Positions 18,558 to 35,993 of a stretch of 36,993 nt of DNA are shown in pieces. Within the stretch, counting starts at the first letter, position 1, and each line of letters begins with the position of its first letter. This DNA is from Aliarcobacter sp. GTDB lineage: Bacteria > Campylobacterota > Campylobacteria > Campylobacterales > Arcobacteraceae. The notes under the pieces were generated by a model that did not search any database, was not told the DNA's origin, and saw only the letters and a program-made list of their open reading frames with translations. The translations under genes were made by a program, and so were the position numbers. Location: contig JAGOIF010000013.1 of assembly GCA_017995775.1 (NCBI GenBank), positions 1 through 36,993 on the forward strand, in the 5' to 3' direction.

Positions 18558-18586
18558 AATCAAAAGATTAATAATCTTTCGATTTT
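18556..18586. terminator. Shared terminator hairpin of the VWA-TPR gene and the ppk2 operon
   Basis: AAAATC (18556-18561) and AAAGATT (18563-18569) pair with AATCTTT (18573-18579) and GATTTT (18581-18586) around one mismatch. Both convergent stop codons fall in or at the edge of the stem. Flanking T runs are short. Confidence 0.6.
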
Positions 18587-19692
18587 CTCATTTGTAAAAG
18601 TTCTTTTTGAACAGAGATATTTATCTCTTCATTTGCATCGAAATCTAATGAATAATTTCTTCCATCATAATCAACAGAATTTAAAATAATTTTCATAGCT
18701 TCAAGTCTAGCTTTATGTTTATCATCACTTCTTACAATATGCCAAGGAGCAGATCTTGAAGTTGTTCGTCTAAGCATTTCATATTTTTTCTCTGAGAATT
18801 CATCCCATAAATCTTGAGCTTGCATATCAACTTCTGAAAACTTCCATTGTCTAAGTGGATCTTCGATTCTTCTATCAAATCTTCTTTTTTGTTCTTCTTT
18901 AGAAACAGAGAAATAAAGTTTAATAACTATCATTCCTTGTCTTACTAAATCTTGTTCAAAATTAACAATATCTTCCATAAAAATTTCATGCTCTTCAGGT
19001 GTACAAAATCCAAATATTGGCTCAACCATAGCTCTGTTATACCAAGATCTATCAAATAAAACTATCTCTCCACCTGTTGGGAAACGTTCGATATATCTTT
19101 GTAAAAACCATTGATTTCTTTGTGTTTCATCAGGTTTACCAAGAGCTACGATTCTATAGTGCTTATTATTCATATATCTAGTGATTCTTCTAATAGCCCC
19201 ACCTTTCCCAGATGCGTCTCTTCCTTCAAAAAGAATAATCATTCTTTTATTTTCTTTTTCCAAATAGTTCTGAAGTTTAATAAGCTCAATTTGATATTTT
19301 TTCAAAGCTTCTAAATCATGAATTTTTTGAATTCCTTCTTCTAAAACTTCAGGTCTTAATTTTTCATAATCACCTAAAATTGACTTAAAAAAATCATTTT
19401 CTTCTTTTAGTTTTAATAAAACTTCATTGTCTTTATCTTTTATTGACACTTTTTTATCCTGCGTAGTTATTTTTTTATCAGCTTGATCAACTATTGAGTT
19501 TTTATATTTTTCCATCAAAGAAAAAGCATCTTTTAAAGATAGATTATCTTTATTTGTATATCCCAAGACTTTTACATATCTTTTTTTTTCATGTTGAAAT
19601 CTTGTTATATATTTTTTTCCAAATTTAGGATGAGAATCTTTTGAAAGATATAATCCTGAATAGTTTGTTATTTCAAAATCATTTAAATTCAT
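18568..19692 (-). CDS. ppk2: Polyphosphate kinase 2 family protein with an extra N-terminal domain
   Basis: A 374-residue PPK2-type nucleotide kinase, expected to move phosphate between polyphosphate and (d)NDP/NMP. The core shows Walker A GRDASGKGG (157-165), the lid region KPDETQRNQWFLQRY, and Walker B IVLFDRSWYNRA (210-221). About 110 residues precede the core. Their first 65 (GLYLSKDS...KKYITRFQHEKKRYVKVLGY...LSLKDAFSLMEKYK) look like the three-strand-plus-helix arm-binding domain of tyrosine integrases rather than anything usual in PPK2. A lysine-rich linker follows. The start ATG overlaps the stop of the upstream ppk2 gene (ATGA). Substrate class cannot be read from the sequence. Confidence 0.88.
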   Translation of the reverse strand: MNLNDFEITNYSGLYLSKDSHPKFGKKYITRFQHEKKRYVKVLGYTNKDNLSLKDAFSLMEKYKNSIVDQADKKITTQDKKVSIKDKDNEVLLKLKEENDFFKSILGDYEKLRPEVLEEGIQKIHDLEALKKYQIELIKLQNYLEKENKRMIILFEGRDASGKGGAIRRITRYMNNKHYRIVALGKPDETQRNQWFLQRYIERFPTGGEIVLFDRSWYNRAMVEPIFGFCTPEEHEIFMEDIVNFEQDLVRQGMIVIKLYFSVSKEEQKRRFDRRIEDPLRQWKFSEVDMQAQDLWDEFSEKKYEMLRRTTSRSAPWHIVRSDDKHKARLEAMKIILNSVDYDGRNYSLDFDANEEINISVQKELLQMRKSKDY

Positions 19693-20630
19693 TGGTCATG
19701 GCTCGTAAATTTATTTTCATGTTCCATACTAGCAATTTCAATTGTTGCTGGAATTAATATATCTTTATTAATTTTAAATATATCATCTTTTGTCTTATCT
19801 GCATAATCTATATTTGATAATATATGTCTAATACAATTTAATCTTGCACTTTTCTTGTTATCACTTTTAATCACCATCCATGGGGCAAGTTCTGTGTTAG
19901 AAGCCATTAACATAGAAAATTTTGCTATTGTATAATTATCCCATAAATTTTGAGACTCTTTATCAACAGGAGAAAGTTTATATTGTTTTAAAGGGTCTAT
20001 TTCTCTTTTTTTAAATCTTTTTGCTTGTTCTTTTTTTGAAACAGAAAAATAAAATTTAAATAATAAGATATCAGATTTAACTAACATTTTCTCAAATTCA
20101 GGAACTTCTCTTAAAAATTCATGATGTTCTTCTGGCGTACAAAATCCCATTACAGGCTCAACTCCAGCTCTGTTATACCAAGATCTATCAAATAAAACTA
20201 TTTCACCAGCACTTGGAAGATGTTGTGTATATCTTTGAAAATACCATTGAGTTTTTTCTGTCTCATTTGGTTTTTCTAAAGCTATTACTTTTGCACCTCG
20301 TGGATTTAAGTGTTCTGTAATTCGCTTAATCGTTCCACCTTTTCCAGCAGCATCTCTTCCTTCAAAAATCATAAGAATTTTAAGACCTTTTTCTTTTACA
20401 TGACTTTGTAATTTTAAAAGCTCAATTTGCAGTCTTGTTAGCTCTTTTTCATAATCTAAAGTATCTTTTCTAACCCAAATTCGAACTTTTTTTTGTCCAT
20501 TAACTTCTTTTTCTGGTAAAGCTTCTCTTTGTCTAGTTTTATCTTTATAATCATGTTTTATTGATTTATCAGTATCGATAACTTCCATATCTGAAAATTC
20601 TTGACTTATAACTTTTCTATTTCGCCCCAT
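19689..20630 (-). CDS. ppk2: Polyphosphate kinase 2 family protein
   Basis: A 313-residue PPK2 paralogue of the downstream gene. Walker A is GRDAAGKGG (91-99), the conserved KPNETEKTQWYFQRY and Walker B IVLFDRSWYNRAGVEPVMGFC (about 144-164) follow, and the C-terminal SPVDKESQNLWDNYT and APWMVIKSDNKKSARLN blocks are intact. The N-terminal 50 residues are polar and probably disordered. Single-domain PPK2 enzymes of this size use polyphosphate to phosphorylate nucleoside diphosphates, or run in reverse. The gene starts 9 bp after nspC ends and overlaps the second ppk2 by 4 bp, placing both at the end of a polyamine operon. Confidence 0.92.
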   Translation of the reverse strand: MGRNRKVISQEFSDMEVIDTDKSIKHDYKDKTRQREALPEKEVNGQKKVRIWVRKDTLDYEKELTRLQIELLKLQSHVKEKGLKILMIFEGRDAAGKGGTIKRITEHLNPRGAKVIALEKPNETEKTQWYFQRYTQHLPSAGEIVLFDRSWYNRAGVEPVMGFCTPEEHHEFLREVPEFEKMLVKSDILLFKFYFSVSKKEQAKRFKKREIDPLKQYKLSPVDKESQNLWDNYTIAKFSMLMASNTELAPWMVIKSDNKKSARLNCIRHILSNIDYADKTKDDIFKINKDILIPATIEIASMEHENKFTSHDQ

Positions 20631-23326: not shown

Positions 23327-23715
23327 GGGGAAGTCCTGGCTTCGATTGGAGTGTTTCGGTTTTAGTTGCATGTCGGTATGAGCATATCGTTAAAAGGCTC
23401 AAAAATGTTTAAATGCAAACAATACAAATTACGCACCTCAAAGGGTAGCAGCTTAATTGCTCTACCCCCGCTCTCTGAATAGAGGCGGGTGTTGCTTCAC
23501 CTACAGATTATTCTGTTAGAGTAGGATTCGAAGTATAACAAACAAACAGATATATCTTAATTATTATCTTTTAAGTTAAGACTAACGCATAAAAGACAGT
23601 TTTATTAAAGTTTAATTGTACTTTTCTAAAATTAAATCGAACAATTAAAAAAGCATGTATAGATACTAAGGTCAAGCATTTTAAGACACGGGTTCGACTC
23701 CCGTCTTCTCCACCA
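23327..23715 (+). ncRNA. ssrA: tmRNA (ssrA)
   Basis: Transfer-messenger RNA that frees stalled ribosomes and tags the peptide for degradation. The 5' end GGGGAAG pairs with CTTCTCC at 23705-23711 (one G-U) to form the acceptor stem, followed by A and an encoded CCA at 23713-23715. The T arm GGGTTCGACTCCC lies just upstream. The tag frame runs 23415-23456, GCA to TAA, giving ANNTNYAPQRVAA. It starts ANN like Campylobacter tags and ends in AA, as Clp-recognised tags do. Length is about 389 nt. The sequence just after the CCA carries mobile-element debris, consistent with ssrA being an integration site. Confidence 0.95.
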
Positions 23716-26303: not shown

Positions 26304-27359
26304 TTAAATAATTGATATTTTAATACTAAACTTTACTCCATTTTCTATATTTTCAACACTAATATCACCATTTAAATATTTTTCCATAATCATTTTACAG
26401 ATATATAGCCCTAGTCCCGTACCATTCTTTTTCTTTTTAGTTGAATAATAAGGCTTGAATATTTTATTAATATTAGCAAGAGGAATTCCTCCTGCATTAT
26501 CTTGTATTTCTATTATTTGAAAAGAATCATTTTGAGTAAAATTTATTTTTATTAGAGGATTCTCAACAGTATTTGTACCAAATGCATCTTTTGAGTTATT
26601 TAATATATTTAAAATAATTTGAATTAAATCATTTTTGCATAAATATATTTTTTCTAAAGGCTCTTGGATGTTTATTTCTAAACTAATTCCTTCTTCATCA
26701 AAATTATTTTTTACAAGTTTATATGTTTCTGTAAATACTTCATCTAATTTTATAAAATCTTTTTTATTATCAGTTTTTAAAAAATCTCTAAAATGATCAA
26801 TTGTATTTGACATATATTGAATATGATCATTAATTAAAGTTAGTTTTTCATCATATGTATTTATATCTATATCTTTTAGATTATATTTTAGTTTCAATCT
26901 TGTAATAATTGATCCTATTGTGCTTAAAGGCTGTCTCCATTGATGCGCAATTACAGAAATCATCTCTCCCATCGCTGCTAGTTTTGACTGCTCAAGGAGA
27001 ATTTTTTCATTCTTTTTCAATTCACTTAAATCTAAAATAGAAACCATTTTATAGATAGTGTTTTCTATTTGTAAATCTTTAATTTTTATGATTGCAGGAA
27101 TTGTATCGGCGTTTTTATTTAATAAGAATATCTCTTGAAACATCTTGCTATTGTATTGTATAAATTTTTCTTTTGAAGTTGGTATCAAAATTCCAACAGC
27201 TAGATTTCCTATTAATTCATTTTCATCTTCATAACATAAAATTTCCATTAAAGGTTTATTTACATACTTTATAAATCCATTTTCAATTATTACTATTCCT
27301 TCAATTGTATTATCAAATATTTGATGAATGTTATTAAAAAAGTTACTATTTGCAGGCAT
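26304..27359 (-). CDS. Soluble PAS sensor histidine kinase (HxWRQPL type)
   Basis: A 351-residue kinase without membrane helices, so it senses a cytoplasmic signal. A PAS domain occupies about residues 8-115. The phosphoacceptor region is SVIAHQWRQPLSTI (His139), the HWRQP subtype common in Campylobacterota. The ATPase domain has the N box (ILNILNNSKDAF), G1 (QDNAGGIP) and G2 (KKNGTGLGLYI). The ATG at 27359 is preferred over one at 27416, because the latter lacks a ribosome-binding site and overlaps the divergent promoter region, whereas TTGGAAAC precedes the former. It is divergent from an OmpR-type regulator, its likely partner. Confidence 0.9.
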   Translation of the reverse strand: MPANSNFFNNIHQIFDNTIEGIVIIENGFIKYVNKPLMEILCYEDENELIGNLAVGILIPTSKEKFIQYNSKMFQEIFLLNKNADTIPAIIKIKDLQIENTIYKMVSILDLSELKKNEKILLEQSKLAAMGEMISVIAHQWRQPLSTIGSIITRLKLKYNLKDIDINTYDEKLTLINDHIQYMSNTIDHFRDFLKTDNKKDFIKLDEVFTETYKLVKNNFDEEGISLEINIQEPLEKIYLCKNDLIQIILNILNNSKDAFGTNTVENPLIKINFTQNDSFQIIEIQDNAGGIPLANINKIFKPYYSTKKKKNGTGLGLYICKMIMEKYLNGDISVENIENGVKFSIKISII

Positions 27360-27416
27360 TTTGAAGTTTCCAATTAAATTTTGATTTGATTTTAGTATTA
27401 TAATTATTTTATACAT

Positions 27417-27422
27417 TATAAT
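27417..27422 (+). promoter_or_regulatory. -10 box for the OmpR-type regulator; overlapping -10 on the other strand
   Basis: TATAAT at 27417-27422 on the plus strand, and TATAAT read on the minus strand from 27420 to 27415. This compact divergent promoter region separates the kinase and regulator genes. Confidence 0.45.
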
Positions 27423-27460
27423 CTATATAAATAATTGTTTACTTTAAATGTGGAGAAAAA

Positions 27461-28204
27461 ATGCTTGATTATATACTTTTGAAAAAATACTCAAAAGATC
27501 TTTCAATTTTATTTGTTGAAGATGATATTCACATTAGAAATGAAACAAAAGAATTACTTGAAGAGATTTTTTCTGTTGTTCATGTAGCAGTTGATGGAAA
27601 AGATGGTTTAGAAAAATATATTAGTTTTTACGAAGAATATCAATATTATTATGATGTAGTTTTAAGTGATATTAAAATGCCAAATATGGATGGAATAGAT
27701 TTAATAAAAGCTATTTATAAAGAGAATAAAAATCAAATTATTTTAGTTCTTTCAGCTCATAATGATATTGAATATTTAATGGAACTAATAAACATTGGAA
27801 TTAGACAATTTATTTTAAAACCATTAAACTATAATAACTTCATAGATACAATTTTTAAAATAAACAAAGAATTATATTTTGAGAAAAATAAAGAAATAGT
27901 TCAAGATACAATAAAACTTTCGCCTAATCTATTCTGGCATAAGCACAATGAAGAATTAAGAGAAAACGATAAATTAATTAAACTTACAAAAAAAGAATTC
28001 TTATTAATTTCGCTACTTATAAAATCTCCTGAAAAAACTTATAGTGTTGAAAAAATTCTTTCTACTTTATGGAGAGATGATTTTAATCAAAATCCTGTCA
28101 TTACAAATCTTAAAAATATTATTTCTAGACTTAGAAAAAAGGTAGTATCTTTAAATATAGAAAATGTTCATAGTTTTGGATACAAGATTCATATATCTAT
28201 CTAG
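27461..28204 (+). CDS. OmpR-type response regulator (REC + winged helix)
   Basis: A 247-residue transcription factor. The receiver has the acidic pair Asp21-Asp22 (FVEDD), phospho-Asp70 (VLSDIKMPNMDG), Ser98 (LVLSAH) and Lys120 (FILKPL), so it should be phosphorylatable. The C-terminal winged helix (about 165-245) contains LTKKEFLLISLLIKSPEKTYSVEKILSTLW, NLKNIISRLRKK and VHSFGYKI, the OmpR/PhoB pattern. A GGAG ribosome-binding site precedes the ATG. The divergent HxWRQPL kinase is the likely cognate partner. Target genes may include the downstream lipoprotein and phosphodiesterase, but no binding repeat was identified. Confidence 0.92.
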   Translation: MLDYILLKKYSKDLSILFVEDDIHIRNETKELLEEIFSVVHVAVDGKDGLEKYISFYEEYQYYYDVVLSDIKMPNMDGIDLIKAIYKENKNQIILVLSAHNDIEYLMELINIGIRQFILKPLNYNNFIDTIFKINKELYFEKNKEIVQDTIKLSPNLFWHKHNEELRENDKLIKLTKKEFLLISLLIKSPEKTYSVEKILSTLWRDDFNQNPVITNLKNIISRLRKKVVSLNIENVHSFGYKIHISI

Positions 28205-28498: not shown

Positions 28499-29545
28499 AT
28501 GACAATAGAAAATATGCGAGTATTATCAATAGACGACAATCAAACTAACTTATTGATTGTTGAAAGTTATGCAAAGATGATTGGCTTAAATATAGAAAGC
28601 TGTTTAGACCCTAGAGATGCTATAAATAAAGCGGAATTAAATGAATATGATTTAGTAATAGTTGATTATATGATGCCTGAAATTAATGGTTTAGAATTTA
28701 TAGAGATATTTAGGAAAAGGAACAAAGTAACTCCAATTATAATGTTAACTGCTGTTGGAGATGATATGAAACTTCAAATAGATGCATTAGAACTTGGAGC
28801 AAATGATTTTTTAAGTAAACCTATTAATGCACCTGTATTTAAAGCAAGAATTATTAATATGCTTAAACTAAGAAAAGCTCAATTATTAATAAAAGACAAA
28901 GCATTACTTTTAGAAGAAGAAGTTATAAATGCGACAAGAAAATTAATAGATTCAGAACAAGAAACTCTACAAATGCTAGGTAAAATTTCAGAATATAGAG
29001 ATCCAGAAACAAGTGCACATACTCAAAGAGTTGCTTCTTATTCAAAATTTTTAGCAAAAAAATATGGTTTAGATGAAGAACAACAAGATATTATTTTTTA
29101 TGCATCTCCTTTTCACGATATTGGGAAAATTGGAATTCCTGATAATATTTTATTAAAACCTGGAAAATTAAGTGATGAAGAACTTATCTTTATGCATAAA
29201 CATTCAAGTATTGGATATGAAATTTTAAAAGATGCAAGAAGTAAATATTTAAAAGCAGGTGGAATAATTGCTTTAAATCACCATGAAAAATATGATGGAA
29301 ATGGTTATCCAAATGGTTTAAAAGGTGAAAATATACATATTTTTGGAAGAATTACTGCAATCGCAGATGTTTTTGATGCATTAACTTCAAAACGACCATA
29401 TAAAGATGCTTGGACTTTAGAAAAAGCATTTCTTTTTTTAGAAGAGGAAAAAGGAAAACATTTTGATCCCATATTAATTGATTTATTTTTAAAAAATAAA
29501 GAAAAGATTATTGAGATTTTTCACCAGTTTCAAGAAAAGGACTAA
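28499..29545 (+). CDS. Response regulator with HD-GYP cyclic-di-GMP phosphodiesterase domain
   Basis: A 348-residue two-domain protein. The receiver carries the DD pair (SIDDN), phospho-Asp56 (VIVDYMMPEING), Thr (IMLTAVG) and Lys107 (FLSKPI). The HD-GYP domain has SAHTQRVA (His174), the HD dyad in PFHDIGKIGIPD (206-207), HKHSSIGYEIL, and HHEKYDGNGYP with the GYP signature (269-271). These residues bind the metal centre that hydrolyses cyclic-di-GMP to pGpG or GMP. The ATG at 28499 is chosen because AAAGGAA lies 6 bp before it; an in-frame TTG six bases earlier is too close. It ends 5 bp before the haem-sensor kinase, so phosphorylation by that kinase is likely. Confidence 0.93.
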   Translation: MTIENMRVLSIDDNQTNLLIVESYAKMIGLNIESCLDPRDAINKAELNEYDLVIVDYMMPEINGLEFIEIFRKRNKVTPIIMLTAVGDDMKLQIDALELGANDFLSKPINAPVFKARIINMLKLRKAQLLIKDKALLLEEEVINATRKLIDSEQETLQMLGKISEYRDPETSAHTQRVASYSKFLAKKYGLDEEQQDIIFYASPFHDIGKIGIPDNILLKPGKLSDEELIFMHKHSSIGYEILKDARSKYLKAGGIIALNHHEKYDGNGYPNGLKGENIHIFGRITAIADVFDALTSKRPYKDAWTLEKAFLFLEEEKGKHFDPILIDLFLKNKEKIIEIFHQFQEKD

Positions 29546-29550
29546 GCTTA

Positions 29551-32500
29551 GTGTTTAAATTATTTTTTAAACTTTTAAAAGTTATCAAAAATCCAATTAT
29601 TGGTCCTATTGCTGTGGCAAGTATTACTTTGCCTATATTAATAATATTTTATTTACCTAGTTTATTTTTAGATAACGAGAAGAACAAAATTACTAAAGAA
29701 GCCCTTGCTGTTGTTGATAATCTAAAAACTTTTAGAACCTATTATGATAACTATGTTATTTCAAAAGTTACAAAGAATACAAATTTAGAAATAAATTTTG
29801 ATCATGAAAATAGTTTAAATACTATTCCTCTTCCAGCAACTATTATTCATAATTTAAGTAAAAAACTTCCTAATAAAGATGGTGTTTATATAAATTTTGT
29901 AAGTGATTTTCCATTTCCTAATAGAGCGGATAGAATATTGGATTCTTTTCAAAAAGAATCTATTGATTACTTTAGAAACAATAAAACTGACTATTATGTA
30001 AAAGAAGAAACAATTAACAATCAGAAAGTTTTAAGAGTCTCATTACCAGATATTATGGTAAATCAAAGCTGTTTATCTTGTCATAATACTAGAGCAGATT
30101 CCCCTAAAAAAGATTGGAAAATTGGTGATGTAAGAGGAATAATAGAAGTTATAATGCCTTTACAAAATCAATTTGTCTTAACTGTAAATCAAACTAAATT
30201 GATGATTATTTTTATGATGTTTATTTCATTAGCATTTATTTTGCATTATGGAATTCTTTATTTTAGAAAAGAAAAAGAAGCTCTTTTTCAGACAAAACAG
30301 TTAAGAAAAGAAGTTAAGAAACGTACAAAAGATTTAGAAGAGAGTAATGTATTACTTCAAGAATATAAAAAAGCTGTAGATGCAAGTGCTATTGTTTCAA
30401 AAACAAATCCTAAAGGAATTATCACTTATGTAAATGATGCATTTTGTGAGATATCTGGATATTCAAGAGATGAACTTATTGGAAAACCTCATAATATAGT
30501 GCGTCACCCTGATATACCAAAAGAGTTATTCAAGAAACTTTGGGAAACTATTCAAAATAAAAAAACTTACAAAAGTATTATTAAAAGTAAATCAAAAAAT
30601 AATCAAACTTATTTTGTAGCAAATACTATTGTTCCTATTTTAAATAAGAAAAATGAAATCATTGAATATCTTTCATTAAAATACGATATTACTGAGCTTG
30701 TAGATGCAAGAGAAAAAGCATTACAAGCTCAACAAACAAAAGGATTATTCCTTGCAAATATGAGTCATGAAATAAGAACTCCACTTAATTCAATTATTGG
30801 ATTTTCTAATATTTTATGCGAAAGTAATCTTGCCTTTAAAGATAAAGAACATGCCAAGATTATCTCTAAAAGTGCAAAGTCCTTACTTATTCTTATAAAC
30901 GATGTTCTTGATATTTCTAAAATTGAAAGTGGGAAACTTGTTCTTGAAGAAAAAAGTTTTTCTTTACTTAATCTAACAGAAGACGTGGTAGAACTATTTT
31001 CTATTAGTTCAATTGAGAAAAATCTTAAGTTTCTTTATACTGTTGATCCTAATTTAGATTTATTAATTAAAGGTGACTCAACCAGATTGAAACAAGTTAT
31101 TTCAAATCTTCTTAGTAATGCTATTAAATTTACTCCTCAAAAAGGAACAATATCTTTAGATTTAAGAATTTTGAAATTTGATGAAGCATCTAAAAGAATA
31201 AAAATAAAATTTACTATTAAAGATAATGGAATTGGAATGACTAAAGATCAATTAGCTCTTATATTTAAGCCATTTTCACAAGCAGATACAGGAATTAATA
31301 GGAAATTTGGGGGAACAGGTCTTGGACTTGCAATTTCATGGGATATTATAAAAGCAATGAACTCACATATTGAAGTTTCAAGCCAATATGGAAAAGGAAG
31401 TGAATTTAGTTTTGATTTAGATTTCAATATTGTTAAAACTAACAAAGATTATGTTAAAGATTCTAATCTGAAGATTGCTATTAGTTCATTAAATCAAGAT
31501 CAAGATAATTTAAAAATCAGTGTTAAAAACTATCTTCATAAAATAGGAACAGTTTGTGAATTAAAAGAAAATATAAATGCTGAGTTTCTATTTTGTTTTG
31601 AAAATAGTAATATTATTGAAGAAATTAAAATATTTAAAAAACAAAACCCTAAATCAAAAATTGTATTTATTGGTGAAAAAGACTTTTTAAGTCAAAATTG
31701 TTTAAATTTAATAGATTATCATTTAGGTTTACCAATATATGGTTCAAAAATCTACAATGTAATTAACCATCATTCAAAGATTCATTCTAATATTTTAAAA
31801 CAATCTTCTATTAATAAAAAAAGTTTTAATGCAAATGTTTTGGTTGCAGAAGATAATACAAACAATCAAAAATTAATTCAAATATTACTTGAAAAACTTG
31901 GTATTAATCCAACTATTGTTTCAAATGGTCAAGAAGTTATTGAAGCTTATAAATCAAACCTTTACCAATTGATATTAATGGATATAAATATGCCTATTTT
32001 AGATGGTATTAGTGCTACCAAAGAGATAATAAAACTTCAAAAAGAAAAAGACTATTATAAAGTTCCTATTGTTGCTTTAACTGCAAACTCAGTGGCTGGC
32101 GATAAAGAAAAATATTTAGATCAAGGTATGGATGAATATATCTCAAAACCTATTGTCTTTAATGAACTTATTGTAGTTTTAAACAAATTTTTAAAATCTG
32201 ATAATAAAGTAAATGATATTATAAAGCTAGATTCAAAAGTTGATATTGAAAAAATATCTAAAAATCTAGGTATTCCAATAAAGTTTGCGAATAATTTAGT
32301 AGATAGTTTTATGAAAAATATTTTAATTGATTTAGAAGAATTACATGAATATATAATTTTGGAAAAATCAGAAGAAATTTCTCAAAAAGCGCAATATATT
32401 AGAAATTCTTGTTTAAATATATCTTTAGACTTTGTTATTGAAGATCTTATTTATATAGAAAATAACAATGAAAATACGCAAAATCTTGAAACAATATATA

Positions 32501-32559
32501 TGAAAATTTATAAATATATAAAGGAAAATTTTGATTTAATAAAGGCTGAGAAAATATGA
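29551..32559 (+). CDS. Hybrid histidine kinase with periplasmic c-type haem (DUF3365-like) sensor and PAS domain
   Basis: A 1002-residue kinase. Helix 1 lies at about 16-40 and helix 2 at about 216-237. Between them is a DUF3365/Tll0287-like sensor with QSCLSCHNT, a CxxCH haem-attachment site (Cys174, Cys177, His178). A short coiled coil and an Aer-like PAS (275-385, with IVRHPDIP) follow. HisKA has phospho-His406 (NMSHEIRTPLNS), and HATPase has N, G1 and G2 boxes (to about 620). A degenerate receiver lies at about 636-745 without an acceptor Asp. An intact receiver (762-880) has Asp811, Thr844 and Lys866. The tail (about 890-1000) is Hpt-like, but the histidine position is Gln948. GTG start after AAAGGA. 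Overlaps the next kinase by 4 bp. Confidence 0.9.
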   Translation: MFKLFFKLLKVIKNPIIGPIAVASITLPILIIFYLPSLFLDNEKNKITKEALAVVDNLKTFRTYYDNYVISKVTKNTNLEINFDHENSLNTIPLPATIIHNLSKKLPNKDGVYINFVSDFPFPNRADRILDSFQKESIDYFRNNKTDYYVKEETINNQKVLRVSLPDIMVNQSCLSCHNTRADSPKKDWKIGDVRGIIEVIMPLQNQFVLTVNQTKLMIIFMMFISLAFILHYGILYFRKEKEALFQTKQLRKEVKKRTKDLEESNVLLQEYKKAVDASAIVSKTNPKGIITYVNDAFCEISGYSRDELIGKPHNIVRHPDIPKELFKKLWETIQNKKTYKSIIKSKSKNNQTYFVANTIVPILNKKNEIIEYLSLKYDITELVDAREKALQAQQTKGLFLANMSHEIRTPLNSIIGFSNILCESNLAFKDKEHAKIISKSAKSLLILINDVLDISKIESGKLVLEEKSFSLLNLTEDVVELFSISSIEKNLKFLYTVDPNLDLLIKGDSTRLKQVISNLLSNAIKFTPQKGTISLDLRILKFDEASKRIKIKFTIKDNGIGMTKDQLALIFKPFSQADTGINRKFGGTGLGLAISWDIIKAMNSHIEVSSQYGKGSEFSFDLDFNIVKTNKDYVKDSNLKIAISSLNQDQDNLKISVKNYLHKIGTVCELKENINAEFLFCFENSNIIEEIKIFKKQNPKSKIVFIGEKDFLSQNCLNLIDYHLGLPIYGSKIYNVINHHSKIHSNILKQSSINKKSFNANVLVAEDNTNNQKLIQILLEKLGINPTIVSNGQEVIEAYKSNLYQLILMDINMPILDGISATKEIIKLQKEKDYYKVPIVALTANSVAGDKEKYLDQGMDEYISKPIVFNELIVVLNKFLKSDNKVNDIIKLDSKVDIEKISKNLGIPIKFANNLVDSFMKNILIDLEELHEYIILEKSEEISQKAQYIRNSCLNISLDFVIEDLIYIENNNENTQNLETIYMKIYKYIKENFDLIKAEKI

Positions 32560-35500
32560 AAAATATAACAATAAAAACAAAATTAGTTCTATTATTTATT
32601 GTTATAAAAGTAATTCCTCTTTTACTCATTTCTTATATAGCATTTGAGGGAGTTAAGAAGCTTGAAGAATATGTAAATAAAAGTACAAGATCATTATTTA
32701 ATGATAATAAAGAAATTATAATAGCAACAGCTAATGCTTCTATTGAAGATAGTATTAAAAATCTAGATAAGAAATCTCAAACTTCTTTAGAAAAAGTATC
32801 TTATGAAATGGCAAAAAATGTTTCGGATTTCTTATATGAAAGAGATAAAGATATTTTATTTTTATCTAAACTTCCTCTTACTCAAGAAGTATTAGAAAGT
32901 TTTTATGAAACAAAAAATAAAGAAATCACTGAACATGGAGAATATCTTTATAATGATGAAAAGCAAATATTTGAGCCAAAAGATACTCAAATAACATATA
33001 AAAGAAAGTCTACAACAGCTTTATTGAAAGATAATGAAAAAGAGTTTAACTACATAGATCCAAATCTTTTTAAAACAAAAACTCTTCCTTTGTACAAAGA
33101 GATTAATTTCTTTGATCTACAAGGAAATGAGCTTTATAAAGTTTCAAGTATAAAAAAAGAAAAAACAAATGTTTTTGATTCTAAAAACACTTATGTAAAT
33201 GCAGAAAGCTATTTTAAAGAAGCAATAGATTTAAAAGAAGGTGAAATTTATGTTTCAGATGTAATTGGTGAATATGTTGGAACAAAAGTTATTGGAACTT
33301 TTACAAAAGAAAAAGCTAAAAATGCAGGGATTGAGTTTGAGCCTGAGAAATACGGCTATGCAGGAGTTGAAAATCCTCTAGGAAAAAGATTTGAAGGAAT
33401 TGTAAGATTCATAACTCCAGTTTTTAAAAACAATCAAAAAATTGGCTATATCTCTTTAGCACTTGATCATAGACACTTAAAAGAGTTTATTAATACTTCA
33501 AATCCAACAGGAATTTCTTCAAAACAAAATATTGCTGATGCAAGTTTGGGAAATTATGTTTTTATGTGGGATTATGAAGGGAAAAGTATCGTTCATCCAA
33601 GGGATTATTCAATAGTTGGCTATGATAAAAACACTGGAAAACTTGCTCTTCCTTGGCTTAGTAGTGATGTTGCTGAAAAGTTTTATGCTTCAAATAAACC
33701 AATTGATGAGTTTTTAAAAAGCTACCCTACTTTTGAAGATCAAGGCTTACATAAAAAACCAAATTTAAAACAGCTAAAAGAAGATGGATTAGTAGGTTTA
33801 GATTGCAAATACTTAAACTTTGCTCCACAATGTCATGGATGGATGGAATTAACACAACATGGTGGTTACGGTTCATTTATTATAAATTGGAGTAATGTTT
33901 GGAAACTTACAACTGCTGCAACTATTCCTTATTTTACTGGAAAATACAAAGATTCACCTCGTGGTTTTGGATTTATTTCAATTGGTGCTAATGTTGATGA
34001 ATTTCACGCAGCTGCAAATGAAACTAAAAAAAATGTTGATTTGATCTTAGAAACACAAACTAGTAAAATGAAAAATAATTTAGAAGAAAATAGTTTAGAA
34101 ATAAGTGTATTTATTAATAATCTTCTAAATGAATTATCAGTTGTTACATTTATTATGATTATTTTGATTATTTCAATTGCTTTATGGATGTCAAATTATG
34201 TTACTTCAAAAATAAATAATTTAATTGAAGGAACTAAAAGATTTACAAACAATGACTTTAGTTATAGAATAGAAGTTAGCTCAAATGATGAAATTGGGAA
34301 CCTTGAACAGTCCTTCAACCAAATGGCTTCAGAGATAAACTCCTTGATTTTAAAGCAAATAGAACTTAATGAAAAACTTGAAGATAAAGTTGATGAAAAA
34401 ACAAAAGAACTTTTAGAAATTAATAAAAATTTAGAATTAGTAATTGAACAAAGAACAAAAGATTTAAAACATTCTTTATTGAAATCACAAAATTCTGATC
34501 AAGTAAAATCAACTTTCTTAGCAAATATGAGTCATGAAATAAGAACTCCTCTAAATGCAATTATAGGATTTTCAGAAGTATTAAGTAGCAATAGTAAAAT
34601 TGATGAAGAGAGCCGTAAACAAGCCATAATTGTAGAAGATAGTGCTAAATCACTTTTAAATATTATCAATGATATTTTAGATGTTTCAAAAATTGAAAGT
34701 GGAAATTTTGAAATTAGTCTTATTCAAACATCATTAAAAGATATCTCAAAAAGTGTATTTGAACTTTACTTAAGTAAATCACAAAACAAACAAATCGTTT
34801 TTTCTTTTGATTTAGATGAAAATATACCATCTTGCGTTATAACAGATGCATTTAGAATAAAACAAGTTCTATCAAATTTAATAAGTAATTCATTAAAATT
34901 TACTCCTAATCATGGTCAAATTGAGCTAAGAATTTCTGTCTTAGAAAAAAGTGATTATAATGCTCGTATTAGATTCTCAGTAAAAGATAATGGTATTGGT
35001 ATTGCTTCAAATAAATTTGATAAAATTTTTGAACCCTTCGTTCAAGCAGATGACCGTTCAAATAAAAAATATGAAGGAACAGGTCTTGGTCTTAGTATTT
35101 GCCAACATATAGTTCAATCATTTAATTCATCTTTAAAAGTTGAAAGTCAGGTGGATGCTGGTTCTACCTTTTGGTTTGATTTAGATTTTAAGATATGTGA
35201 AGATGTAGCTAGTATAAACAATGATTTAAAAAAGACTGATTTTAAAGGAAATATTTTAGTAGTAGAAGATAATATTTTAAATCAAGAATTAATCAAATAT
35301 TTTCTAGAAGAGCTAAAATTAGATTTTACCCTAGTTGAAAATGGACTTGATGCCCTTGATAAGTTCAAAGAAAATAAATATGACTTATTCTTAATGAATA
35401 TAAATACATCTGGTTTAAAAGCGTTAGAGACTTTTAAACTATTAAGAGAATATGAAAAAGAAGATATGCTAAAGCCAGTGTTTATAACAGCACTAAGTAT

Positions 35501-35993
35501 AAATAGTTTAAAAGAAGAAGAAAAAGAGATATATTTAGAAGTAGGAATGAATGATTACTTACTAAGTCCTCTTTCATTTGAAGTTTTTAAAAAACTCATT
35601 TTAGAAGTTTTAGATAAAAGATTAGATGAAGATATTAATAAGGTAGAAATAAAACCTAAAAGAAAAATCATAGAAGTAAATTTTAGTAAATCAGAAACTA
35701 TGAAACAATTAGGTCTTGATGAAGATACTATAGATATGCTATTAGCTAATTTCTTTTCAACACTAGAGCATGATATTCAAAAACTTGAAAATGCTATTGA
35801 TTCTTCCATAGCTCAAGATATTGTTCAAGCATCACACTATTTAAAAAGTTCTTCTGTCAATCTGGTGATGAAAGAAGCTTCTTTGATACTTGAAAATATA
35901 GAAAAAGATGCAAAAAATGGCAAAGTTACTTTTGAAAAAAATGTGATTGAAGATTTAAAATACATATTTAAAAAAATCAAAGAGTCTATATAA
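32556..35993 (+). CDS. Hybrid histidine kinase with a large extracytoplasmic Cache-like sensor, HAMP, degenerate receiver and Hpt
   Basis: A 1145-residue kinase. Helix 1 lies at about 9-30 and helix 2 at about 527-546. A roughly 490-residue periplasmic domain of double-Cache type lies between them, with VRFITPVFKNNQKIGYISLALD, a conserved-looking block with CKYLNFAPQCHGW, and RGFGFISIGANVDEF. A HAMP domain (about 547-600) and coiled coil follow. HisKA has His660 (NMSHEIRTPLNA), and HATPase runs to about 878. The receiver (898-1015) keeps the acidic start (VVEDN) but has Asn948 for the phospho-Asp (FLMNIN) and Ser1004 for the Lys. The C-terminal Hpt (about 1045-1140) keeps His1094 (SHYLKSSSVNL). 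The ATG overlaps the upstream kinase stop (ATGA). Confidence 0.9.
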   Translation: MKNITIKTKLVLLFIVIKVIPLLLISYIAFEGVKKLEEYVNKSTRSLFNDNKEIIIATANASIEDSIKNLDKKSQTSLEKVSYEMAKNVSDFLYERDKDILFLSKLPLTQEVLESFYETKNKEITEHGEYLYNDEKQIFEPKDTQITYKRKSTTALLKDNEKEFNYIDPNLFKTKTLPLYKEINFFDLQGNELYKVSSIKKEKTNVFDSKNTYVNAESYFKEAIDLKEGEIYVSDVIGEYVGTKVIGTFTKEKAKNAGIEFEPEKYGYAGVENPLGKRFEGIVRFITPVFKNNQKIGYISLALDHRHLKEFINTSNPTGISSKQNIADASLGNYVFMWDYEGKSIVHPRDYSIVGYDKNTGKLALPWLSSDVAEKFYASNKPIDEFLKSYPTFEDQGLHKKPNLKQLKEDGLVGLDCKYLNFAPQCHGWMELTQHGGYGSFIINWSNVWKLTTAATIPYFTGKYKDSPRGFGFISIGANVDEFHAAANETKKNVDLILETQTSKMKNNLEENSLEISVFINNLLNELSVVTFIMIILIISIALWMSNYVTSKINNLIEGTKRFTNNDFSYRIEVSSNDEIGNLEQSFNQMASEINSLILKQIELNEKLEDKVDEKTKELLEINKNLELVIEQRTKDLKHSLLKSQNSDQVKSTFLANMSHEIRTPLNAIIGFSEVLSSNSKIDEESRKQAIIVEDSAKSLLNIINDILDVSKIESGNFEISLIQTSLKDISKSVFELYLSKSQNKQIVFSFDLDENIPSCVITDAFRIKQVLSNLISNSLKFTPNHGQIELRISVLEKSDYNARIRFSVKDNGIGIASNKFDKIFEPFVQADDRSNKKYEGTGLGLSICQHIVQSFNSSLKVESQVDAGSTFWFDLDFKICEDVASINNDLKKTDFKGNILVVEDNILNQELIKYFLEELKLDFTLVENGLDALDKFKENKYDLFLMNINTSGLKALETFKLLREYEKEDMLKPVFITALSINSLKEEEKEIYLEVGMNDYLLSPLSFEVFKKLILEVLDKRLDEDINKVEIKPKRKIIEVNFSKSETMKQLGLDEDTIDMLLANFFSTLEHDIQKLENAIDSSIAQDIVQASHYLKSSSVNLVMKEASLILENIEKDAKNGKVTFEKNVIEDLKYIFKKIKESI

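Follow-up and report, generated by a model that had tools for sequence, protein, structure and literature searches.

How can two hybrid histidine kinases signal when each lacks a different step of the phosphorelay, and how would such a pair have come about? The question is raised by a locus of Aliarcobacter sp. in a 36,993-nucleotide stretch of DNA (assembly GCA_017995775.1, contig JAGOIF010000013.1, positions 1 to 36,993 of the forward strand), hereafter the window, by which we mean this stretch at its full length. The locus is an operon-like run of three genes, all on the + strand: a response regulator combining a receiver (REC) with an HD-GYP domain (REC-HD-GYP), then two hybrid kinases, HK1 and HK2, with the GTG start codon of HK1 lying 5 bp downstream of the end of the REC-HD-GYP gene (Table 1). 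Our favored answer, to which we give a probability of roughly 0.6, is that HK1 and HK2 make up one shared phosphorelay, which would have arisen by degeneration of two complete kinases with a common output. Signals would then probably reach the shared output enzyme only by both kinases jointly.

A sequence-only reading of this DNA had already proposed a split relay carried by two kinases whose genes overlap by 4 bp. We found the overlap, and reproduced H406, D811 and Q948 of HK1 as well as N948, S1004 and H1094 of HK2, each with its codon position; to these we add the kinase histidine of HK2 itself, H660 (34533), which the earlier account had missed. Judged by their residues, it is well established which domains should and which should not be able to carry phosphate: neither protein holds the full His-Asp-His-Asp chain and jointly every step is present, as had been proposed. 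In the mechanism that we favor, HK1 would autophosphorylate on H406 and pass the phosphate to its own D811, from which it would cross between the proteins to H1094 of HK2 and then to the receiver of the REC-HD-GYP protein encoded just upstream, changing cyclic di-GMP (c-di-GMP). The signal of HK2 would have two possible ways in: H660 could phosphorylate D811 in trans, or the efficiency of H1094 could be altered. Such a split would have come about by degeneration of two complete kinases already serving one output, the spared domains staying conserved.

The C-terminal tail of HK1 has no match to the Pfam histidine phosphotransfer (Hpt) family. It scores 65.1 bits against a profile built from His-bearing Hpt relatives only; with an alignment of sixteen Hpt domains, its own among them, the score is 104.5 bits. 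Its AlphaFold model (mean pLDDT, the predicted local distance difference test, 82) is a bundle of helices that places Q948 midway along one of them. The matches listed by Foldseek for the model of the HK1 REC and Hpt together are receivers, and hence not informative on the Hpt part. Profile and predicted fold thus indicate that the tail is a genuine Hpt homologue devoid of the phospho-accepting His. In HK2, conversely, the receiver has the features of a pseudo-receiver, i.e. a match to PF00072 with both the phospho-acceptor Asp and the Lys absent, leaving HK2 without a working chain of its own from kinase His (H1) through receiver Asp (D1) to Hpt His (H2) (N948, S1004). Its Hpt passes the Pfam cut-off (25.6 bits, cut-off 24.6) and shares its type with the KGSCANL group found in congeners. 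In a published survey, the His was absent in 0.9% of Hpt domains and the Asp in 2.0% of receivers (PMC12632262), giving a joint expectation for one adjacent pair of ~2e-4, assuming independence. Further changes are present in both degenerate domains, at the T and K positions of the receiver and as a loop insertion of one residue, which makes single base-calling errors an unlikely cause.

If HK1 has no working Hpt, which domain could take the phosphate from D811? A Pfam Hpt search of the window genome, which is 95% complete, found two domains, that of HK2 and one on contig 37 that adjoins a receiver-only gene and is taken to be the putative CheA of a chemotaxis cluster; a profile of the relatives' Hpt domains matched only in HK2 and HK1. 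As no other His-bearing Hpt was found outside the chemotaxis cluster, D811 has only HK2's Hpt for a full relay, making this domain its only likely partner in the window genome. For the last step, the REC-HD-GYP protein had been suggested as acceptor. Its gene is the immediate upstream neighbor, most related loci also have such a gene beside HK1 or HK2, and the receiver of the window protein has all catalytic residues; on these grounds it is the probable final phosphate acceptor and c-di-GMP phosphodiesterase. Against the NosR family (NF053512) it scores 147 bits, below the cut-off of 400.

To place the split in the family, 104 family genomes were searched with HK2 and 101 of them with HK1, the loci were extracted and their domains mapped. 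Four species of the genus have a full-length HK2 orthologue: the window species, its sister (G098), and G094 and G100. Both kinases are complete in G098, and the pair is usually complete elsewhere in the family (G058, G067, G035 and G002); some related loci have no HK1 or no HK2 altogether. In G094 and G100, the gene order is REC-HD-GYP, a complete HK1a, a FIST protein (NosP-like), HK1b and HK2. There, HK1b, directly upstream of HK2, has the Hpt His replaced by Tyr, and HK2 has a conserved Hpt and a degenerate receiver (ED to EE, Thr to Ser, a loop deletion) that retains Asp and Lys. Elsewhere, HK1 stops short of the Hpt in G092 and G093, a third kinase (HK3) has the Hpt His replaced by Asn beside an H-NOX gene in G002 and lacks an Hpt in G018, HK2 is truncated after the receiver in G071, and a contig-end fragment in G102 holds the latter half of an HK2-like receiver together with the Hpt, both intact. 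The split relay thus stands as a plausible model but not as a fixed property of the kinase pair, since the pair is complete in G098 and in four further paired genomes. The generality that the sequence-only reading implied is lost: by these comparisons the split is not conserved but arose within a single genus, from an ancestral pair that was complete. That reading had also counted random retention of the Asp and the His among homologues against itself. Both are indeed kept in most of them, but the losses are not scattered: Hpt losses fall on the kinase beside HK2, and receiver losses on HK2.

In groups that were set after seeing the data, with lineages counted by hand and small numbers, the Hpt was lost in kinases beside HK2 in 5 of 10 lineages, by substitution (Q in the window, Y in G094/G100, N in G002 HK3) or truncation (G092/G093, G018 HK3). 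The corresponding count is 0 of 7 for comparable kinases without an HK2 neighbor (Fisher one-sided p = 0.04), leaving out two related-type kinases not beside HK2 that end before the Hpt (G098, G092), and 1 of 16 for HK2 itself (p = 0.018). An enrichment of Hpt loss beside HK2 is suggested by these counts. The window and G094/G100, where the upstream neighbor has a His-less Hpt, are the sole loci with a degenerate receiver, in each case that of HK2, and every surveyed cluster of two or more kinases has at least one intact receiver and at least one intact Hpt. Could the window pair simply be redundant and decaying at random toward loss of one gene, with no functional meaning? Most paired loci having both kinases complete would fit this, as would the loci without HK1 or HK2 and the small numbers overall. 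We nevertheless consider it highly improbable: neither reading frame is shortened and both kinase cores are intact, published base rates put the combination at ~2e-4, similar paired losses are seen in a second lineage, and no surveyed cluster of at least two kinases has gone without an intact receiver and an intact Hpt.

The decay is confined to the matching domains, and the spared partner domains are conserved: in the window, branches are long for the HK1 Hpt (1.98) and HK2 REC (1.84) compared with the HK1 REC (0.30) and HK2 Hpt (0.53). In a tree of rpoB and the trigger-factor locus (INDEPENDENCE), the window species is sister to G098, with G094/G100 outside; support for this sisterhood is 98/99 on codons and weaker on other codings, and rpoB alone does not resolve the order of the four species. 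In a receiver tree of fixed topology, branch lengths are 1.08 for the window, 0.38 for G098, 0.85 for the G094/G100 stem and ~0 for the internal branch, against kinase-domain values of 0.54, 0.29 and 0.29 for the first three, so that no shared accelerated branch is seen. With G098 intact and no such branch for REC, the receiver appears to have decayed independently in the two lineages. The Hpt losses of the window and G094/G100 may be independent or may stem from a shared HK1b-like ancestor; the Hpt tree unites them, on long branches only.

Is anything still holding the degenerate domains in place? Between G094 and G100, the ratio of nonsynonymous to synonymous substitution rates (dN/dS) is 0.28 for the degenerate receiver, 0.07-0.17 for other cluster domains and 0.17 for the His-less HK1b Hpt, and 28 of 120 residues differ in the HK2 receiver, compared with 9 of 126 in the intact HK1b receiver (p = 0.0006). 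The HK2 receiver is thus relaxed yet not free, while the His-less Hpt remains under constraint, which a retained structural role would predict. The latter bears on the possibility that both HisKA domains phosphorylate the REC-HD-GYP receiver directly, the receiver and Hpt tails being decaying leftovers, which we regard as improbable. A direct route from sensor to HD-GYP does exist elsewhere, as HK2-type sensors occur in kinases lacking REC or Hpt beside REC-PAS-PAS-HD-GYP proteins, but the HisKA of those kinases is of a different type (phmmer score ~30 or no match). Leftovers would also fit poorly with one domain decayed per protein and its partner conserved, and with an HK1b Hpt about as constrained as intact domains.

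The relaxed receiver bears on another arrangement, in which HK2 would be the main kinase-Hpt hub and HK1 a LadS-like satellite feeding HK2's Hpt, with the HK2 pseudo-receiver gating its own kinase or Hpt and the HK2 kinase making no use of D811. ShkA and CikA offer known cases of hybrid kinases gated by a pseudo-receiver, and the G094/G100 receiver, relaxed and not free, evolves as such a domain could. The repeated Hpt loss beside HK2 and a specificity helix in the dimerization and histidine phosphotransfer (DHp) region that is still HK2-like also speak for it. This arrangement would, however, leave the intact HK2 kinase without an intact receiver of its own ahead of the Hpt, and HK2 would need to bypass the relay by phosphorylating REC-HD-GYP directly; we therefore judge it unlikely.

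How does a shared relay of HK1 and HK2 compare with known systems? The enterobacterial RcsC/RcsD/RcsB system pairs a hybrid kinase bearing a receiver with a partner that keeps its Hpt but is degenerate in another part, which in RcsD is the kinase. Unlike RcsD, HK2 has an intact kinase (HisKA with H660, and HATPase; scores in Table 1) and a dead receiver. In LadS/GacS/GacA of Pseudomonas aeruginosa, H1 and D1 also come from one hybrid kinase and the Hpt from a second, with D1-to-Hpt transfer between the two proven in vitro (PMC4866733). HK1 fits such a first kinase (H406, D811 and K866 intact, no working Hpt owing to Q948), and HK2 fits the second by its intact Hpt and fails it in lacking a GacS-like H1-D1-H2 chain of its own. 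The systems differ in that LadS functions through H1 and D1 only while the GacS receiver works, in the output (GacA is a transcription regulator, compared with REC-HD-GYP) and in that LadS/GacS show no reciprocal residue loss (PMC4866733). CblS/CblT/CblR of Burkholderia likewise has two kinases, one Hpt (that of CblT) and one response regulator; the available parts of the sources have CblT signaling by itself and do not mention reciprocal receiver and Hpt residue loss for CblS/CblT (PMC4866733, PMC3842833). In P. aeruginosa PA14, PvrS uses the Hpt of an operon-encoded second kinase, RcsC, toward RcsB, as proposed here for HK1; there the chief roles of RcsC are those of phosphatase and relay, and the receiver Asp of PvrS was dispensable under the conditions tested (PMC3842833). 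The nitric oxide systems NosP-NosK-NosR, as far as the available part of their source goes, also join a kinase and a REC-HD-GYP in one operon, with a degenerate HD-GYP motif in Burkholderia NosR, unlike the intact one in the window, and with no receiver or Hpt mentioned for NosK, unlike HK1/HK2 (PMC12570481). A FIST (NosP-like) gene stands beside the kinase in G094/G100 and G009, and none does at the window locus.

Several points weigh against a shared relay of HK1 and HK2. The system does not depend on the split, as its complete form in the sister species shows; the G094/G100 HK2 receiver, with its Asp and Lys, may still work; and the loss counts carry the limits given with them. The steps from H406 through D811 and H1094 to REC-HD-GYP are ones that we infer from residues, and an unseen Hpt could possibly lie in the missing 5% of the genome. 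For H660 to D811, H1-D1 cross-transfer was not seen in LadS/GacS (PMC4866733). The DHp helices of HK1 and HK2, compared across the four close species by the helix-1 value alone, are 68% alike over 25 residues but diverge after the His, making HK2-to-D811 transfer uncertain.

As for inputs, the sequence-only reading had named a heme and a Cache signal. The heme input to HK1 is plausible in view of its Tll0287-like domain and CLSCH motif. A PDB sequence search with the N-terminal 240 residues of HK1 gave no match. The Cache assignment for HK2 is unproven: the sCache_2 match is weak (14.9 bits, cut-off 25), PF21623 scores 28.4 bits (cut-off 27), the AlphaFold model built from seven sequences is poor (pLDDT 38), and a PDB sequence search with a profile of this sensor returned nothing meaningful. 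Kinases of ~860 aa (L072-L089) combine the HK2-type sensor with another type of HisKA, and most of them adjoin a REC-PAS-PAS-HD-GYP gene, giving one sensor two couplings to c-di-GMP turnover.

Other observations concern the make-up of these kinases. The spacer of HK1 (31447-31815), between HATPase and receiver, carries a conserved LP[IF]Y[AG]SK motif and occupies the position held by the pseudo-receiver in ShkA; HK1-type spacers also occur in the HK2 of other genera, whereas HK2 in the four close species has none. From sensor to spacer, window HK1 is HK1a-like, its receiver is ambiguous and its Hpt is nearer HK1b and of the NSCLN type, which suggests a tail exchange; long branches make this signal unsure, and we do not claim HK1 as a simple chimera of the G094/G100 HK1a and HK1b. 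In G053 (L064 5628-9242 and L068 7512-10457, genes ~1.3 Mb apart) and G002 (L058 6786-13593), the genome's own HK1 and HK2 have (nearly) identical kinase-receiver-Hpt tails and different sensors, a pattern best read from the sequences as recent gene conversion or domain exchange. The Hpt phospho-His is lost in kinases beside gas sensors, to Asn next to H-NOX (G002, L058 4588-6776) and to Tyr next to a FIST/NosP-like gene (G094, L052 5508-9493), and both kinases share clusters with an HK2 of intact Hpt.

Table 1. Genes and domains of the REC-HD-GYP, HK1 and HK2 run, in window coordinates.
Feature	Position	Strand	Remarks
REC-HD-GYP response regulator, 350 aa	28493..29545	+	
REC of REC-HD-GYP	28520-28852		DD/D/T/K intact
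HD-GYP domain	28982-29470		motifs HDIGKIG and GNGYP present
HK1, 1002 aa	29551..32559	+	GTG start; order: Tll0287-like sensor, transmembrane segment, PAS, HisKA, HATPase, receiver-like spacer, REC, His-less Hpt
Tll0287-like sensor domain of HK1	29680..30159	+	PF11845, 70.8 bits
CLSCH heme-type motif in HK1 sensor	30070-30084	+	motif
HisKA of HK1	30739..30933	+	phospho-His H406, codon 30766 CAT
Degenerate receiver-like spacer of HK1	31447..31815	+	LPIYGSKIY-type motif; by eye, no Pfam match
Intact receiver of HK1	31837..32178	+	PF00072 77.6 bits; D811 (31981, GAT), T844, K866
His-less Hpt of HK1, NSCLN-type	32239..32529	+	Q948 (32392, CAA)
HK1 stop/HK2 start overlap, 4 bp	32556..32559	+	ATGA
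HK2, 1145 aa	32556..35993	+	order: sensor region ~530 aa, HAMP, HisKA, HATPase, dead REC, intact Hpt
HisKA of HK2	34506..34703	+	H660, codon 34533; 69.9 bits
HATPase of HK2	34845-35192	+	99.1 bits; kinase motifs of HK2 intact
Pseudo-receiver of HK2	35253..35594	+	PF00072 49.9 bits; Asp to Asn948 (35397, AAT); acidic ED retained, Thr to Ser, Lys to Ser1004 (35565, AGT)
Intact Hpt of HK2	35739..35945	+	PF01627; H1094 (35835, CAC)

Further upstream in the window lie a divergent pair (26304-28204) of a PAS-type histidine kinase (-) and a receiver-winged-helix regulator (+), a tmRNA gene (23327-23715) with the tag ANNTNYAPQRVAA, and two neighboring PPK2-type polyphosphate kinase genes (18568-20630), an apparent tandem duplication.

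Trans relays are already known; the new part is apparently the reciprocal loss, in two lineages. We tentatively suggest, at somewhat less than even odds, that reciprocal loss made two complete kinases obligate partners, with a similar outcome reached independently in two lineages of one genus. It is possible, though we hold it with equal reserve, that this amounts to subfunctionalization at the level of domains inside a phosphorelay, with two sensors coupled by the flow of phosphate. If true, the family would offer a natural series, from both kinases complete, through loss of the upstream Hpt, to loss of the upstream Hpt with a degenerate downstream receiver, showing how loss can build a relay in which several sensors share one c-di-GMP output, and would be a clean system for how kinases grow interdependent and for the structural roles of dead receivers and Hpt domains.

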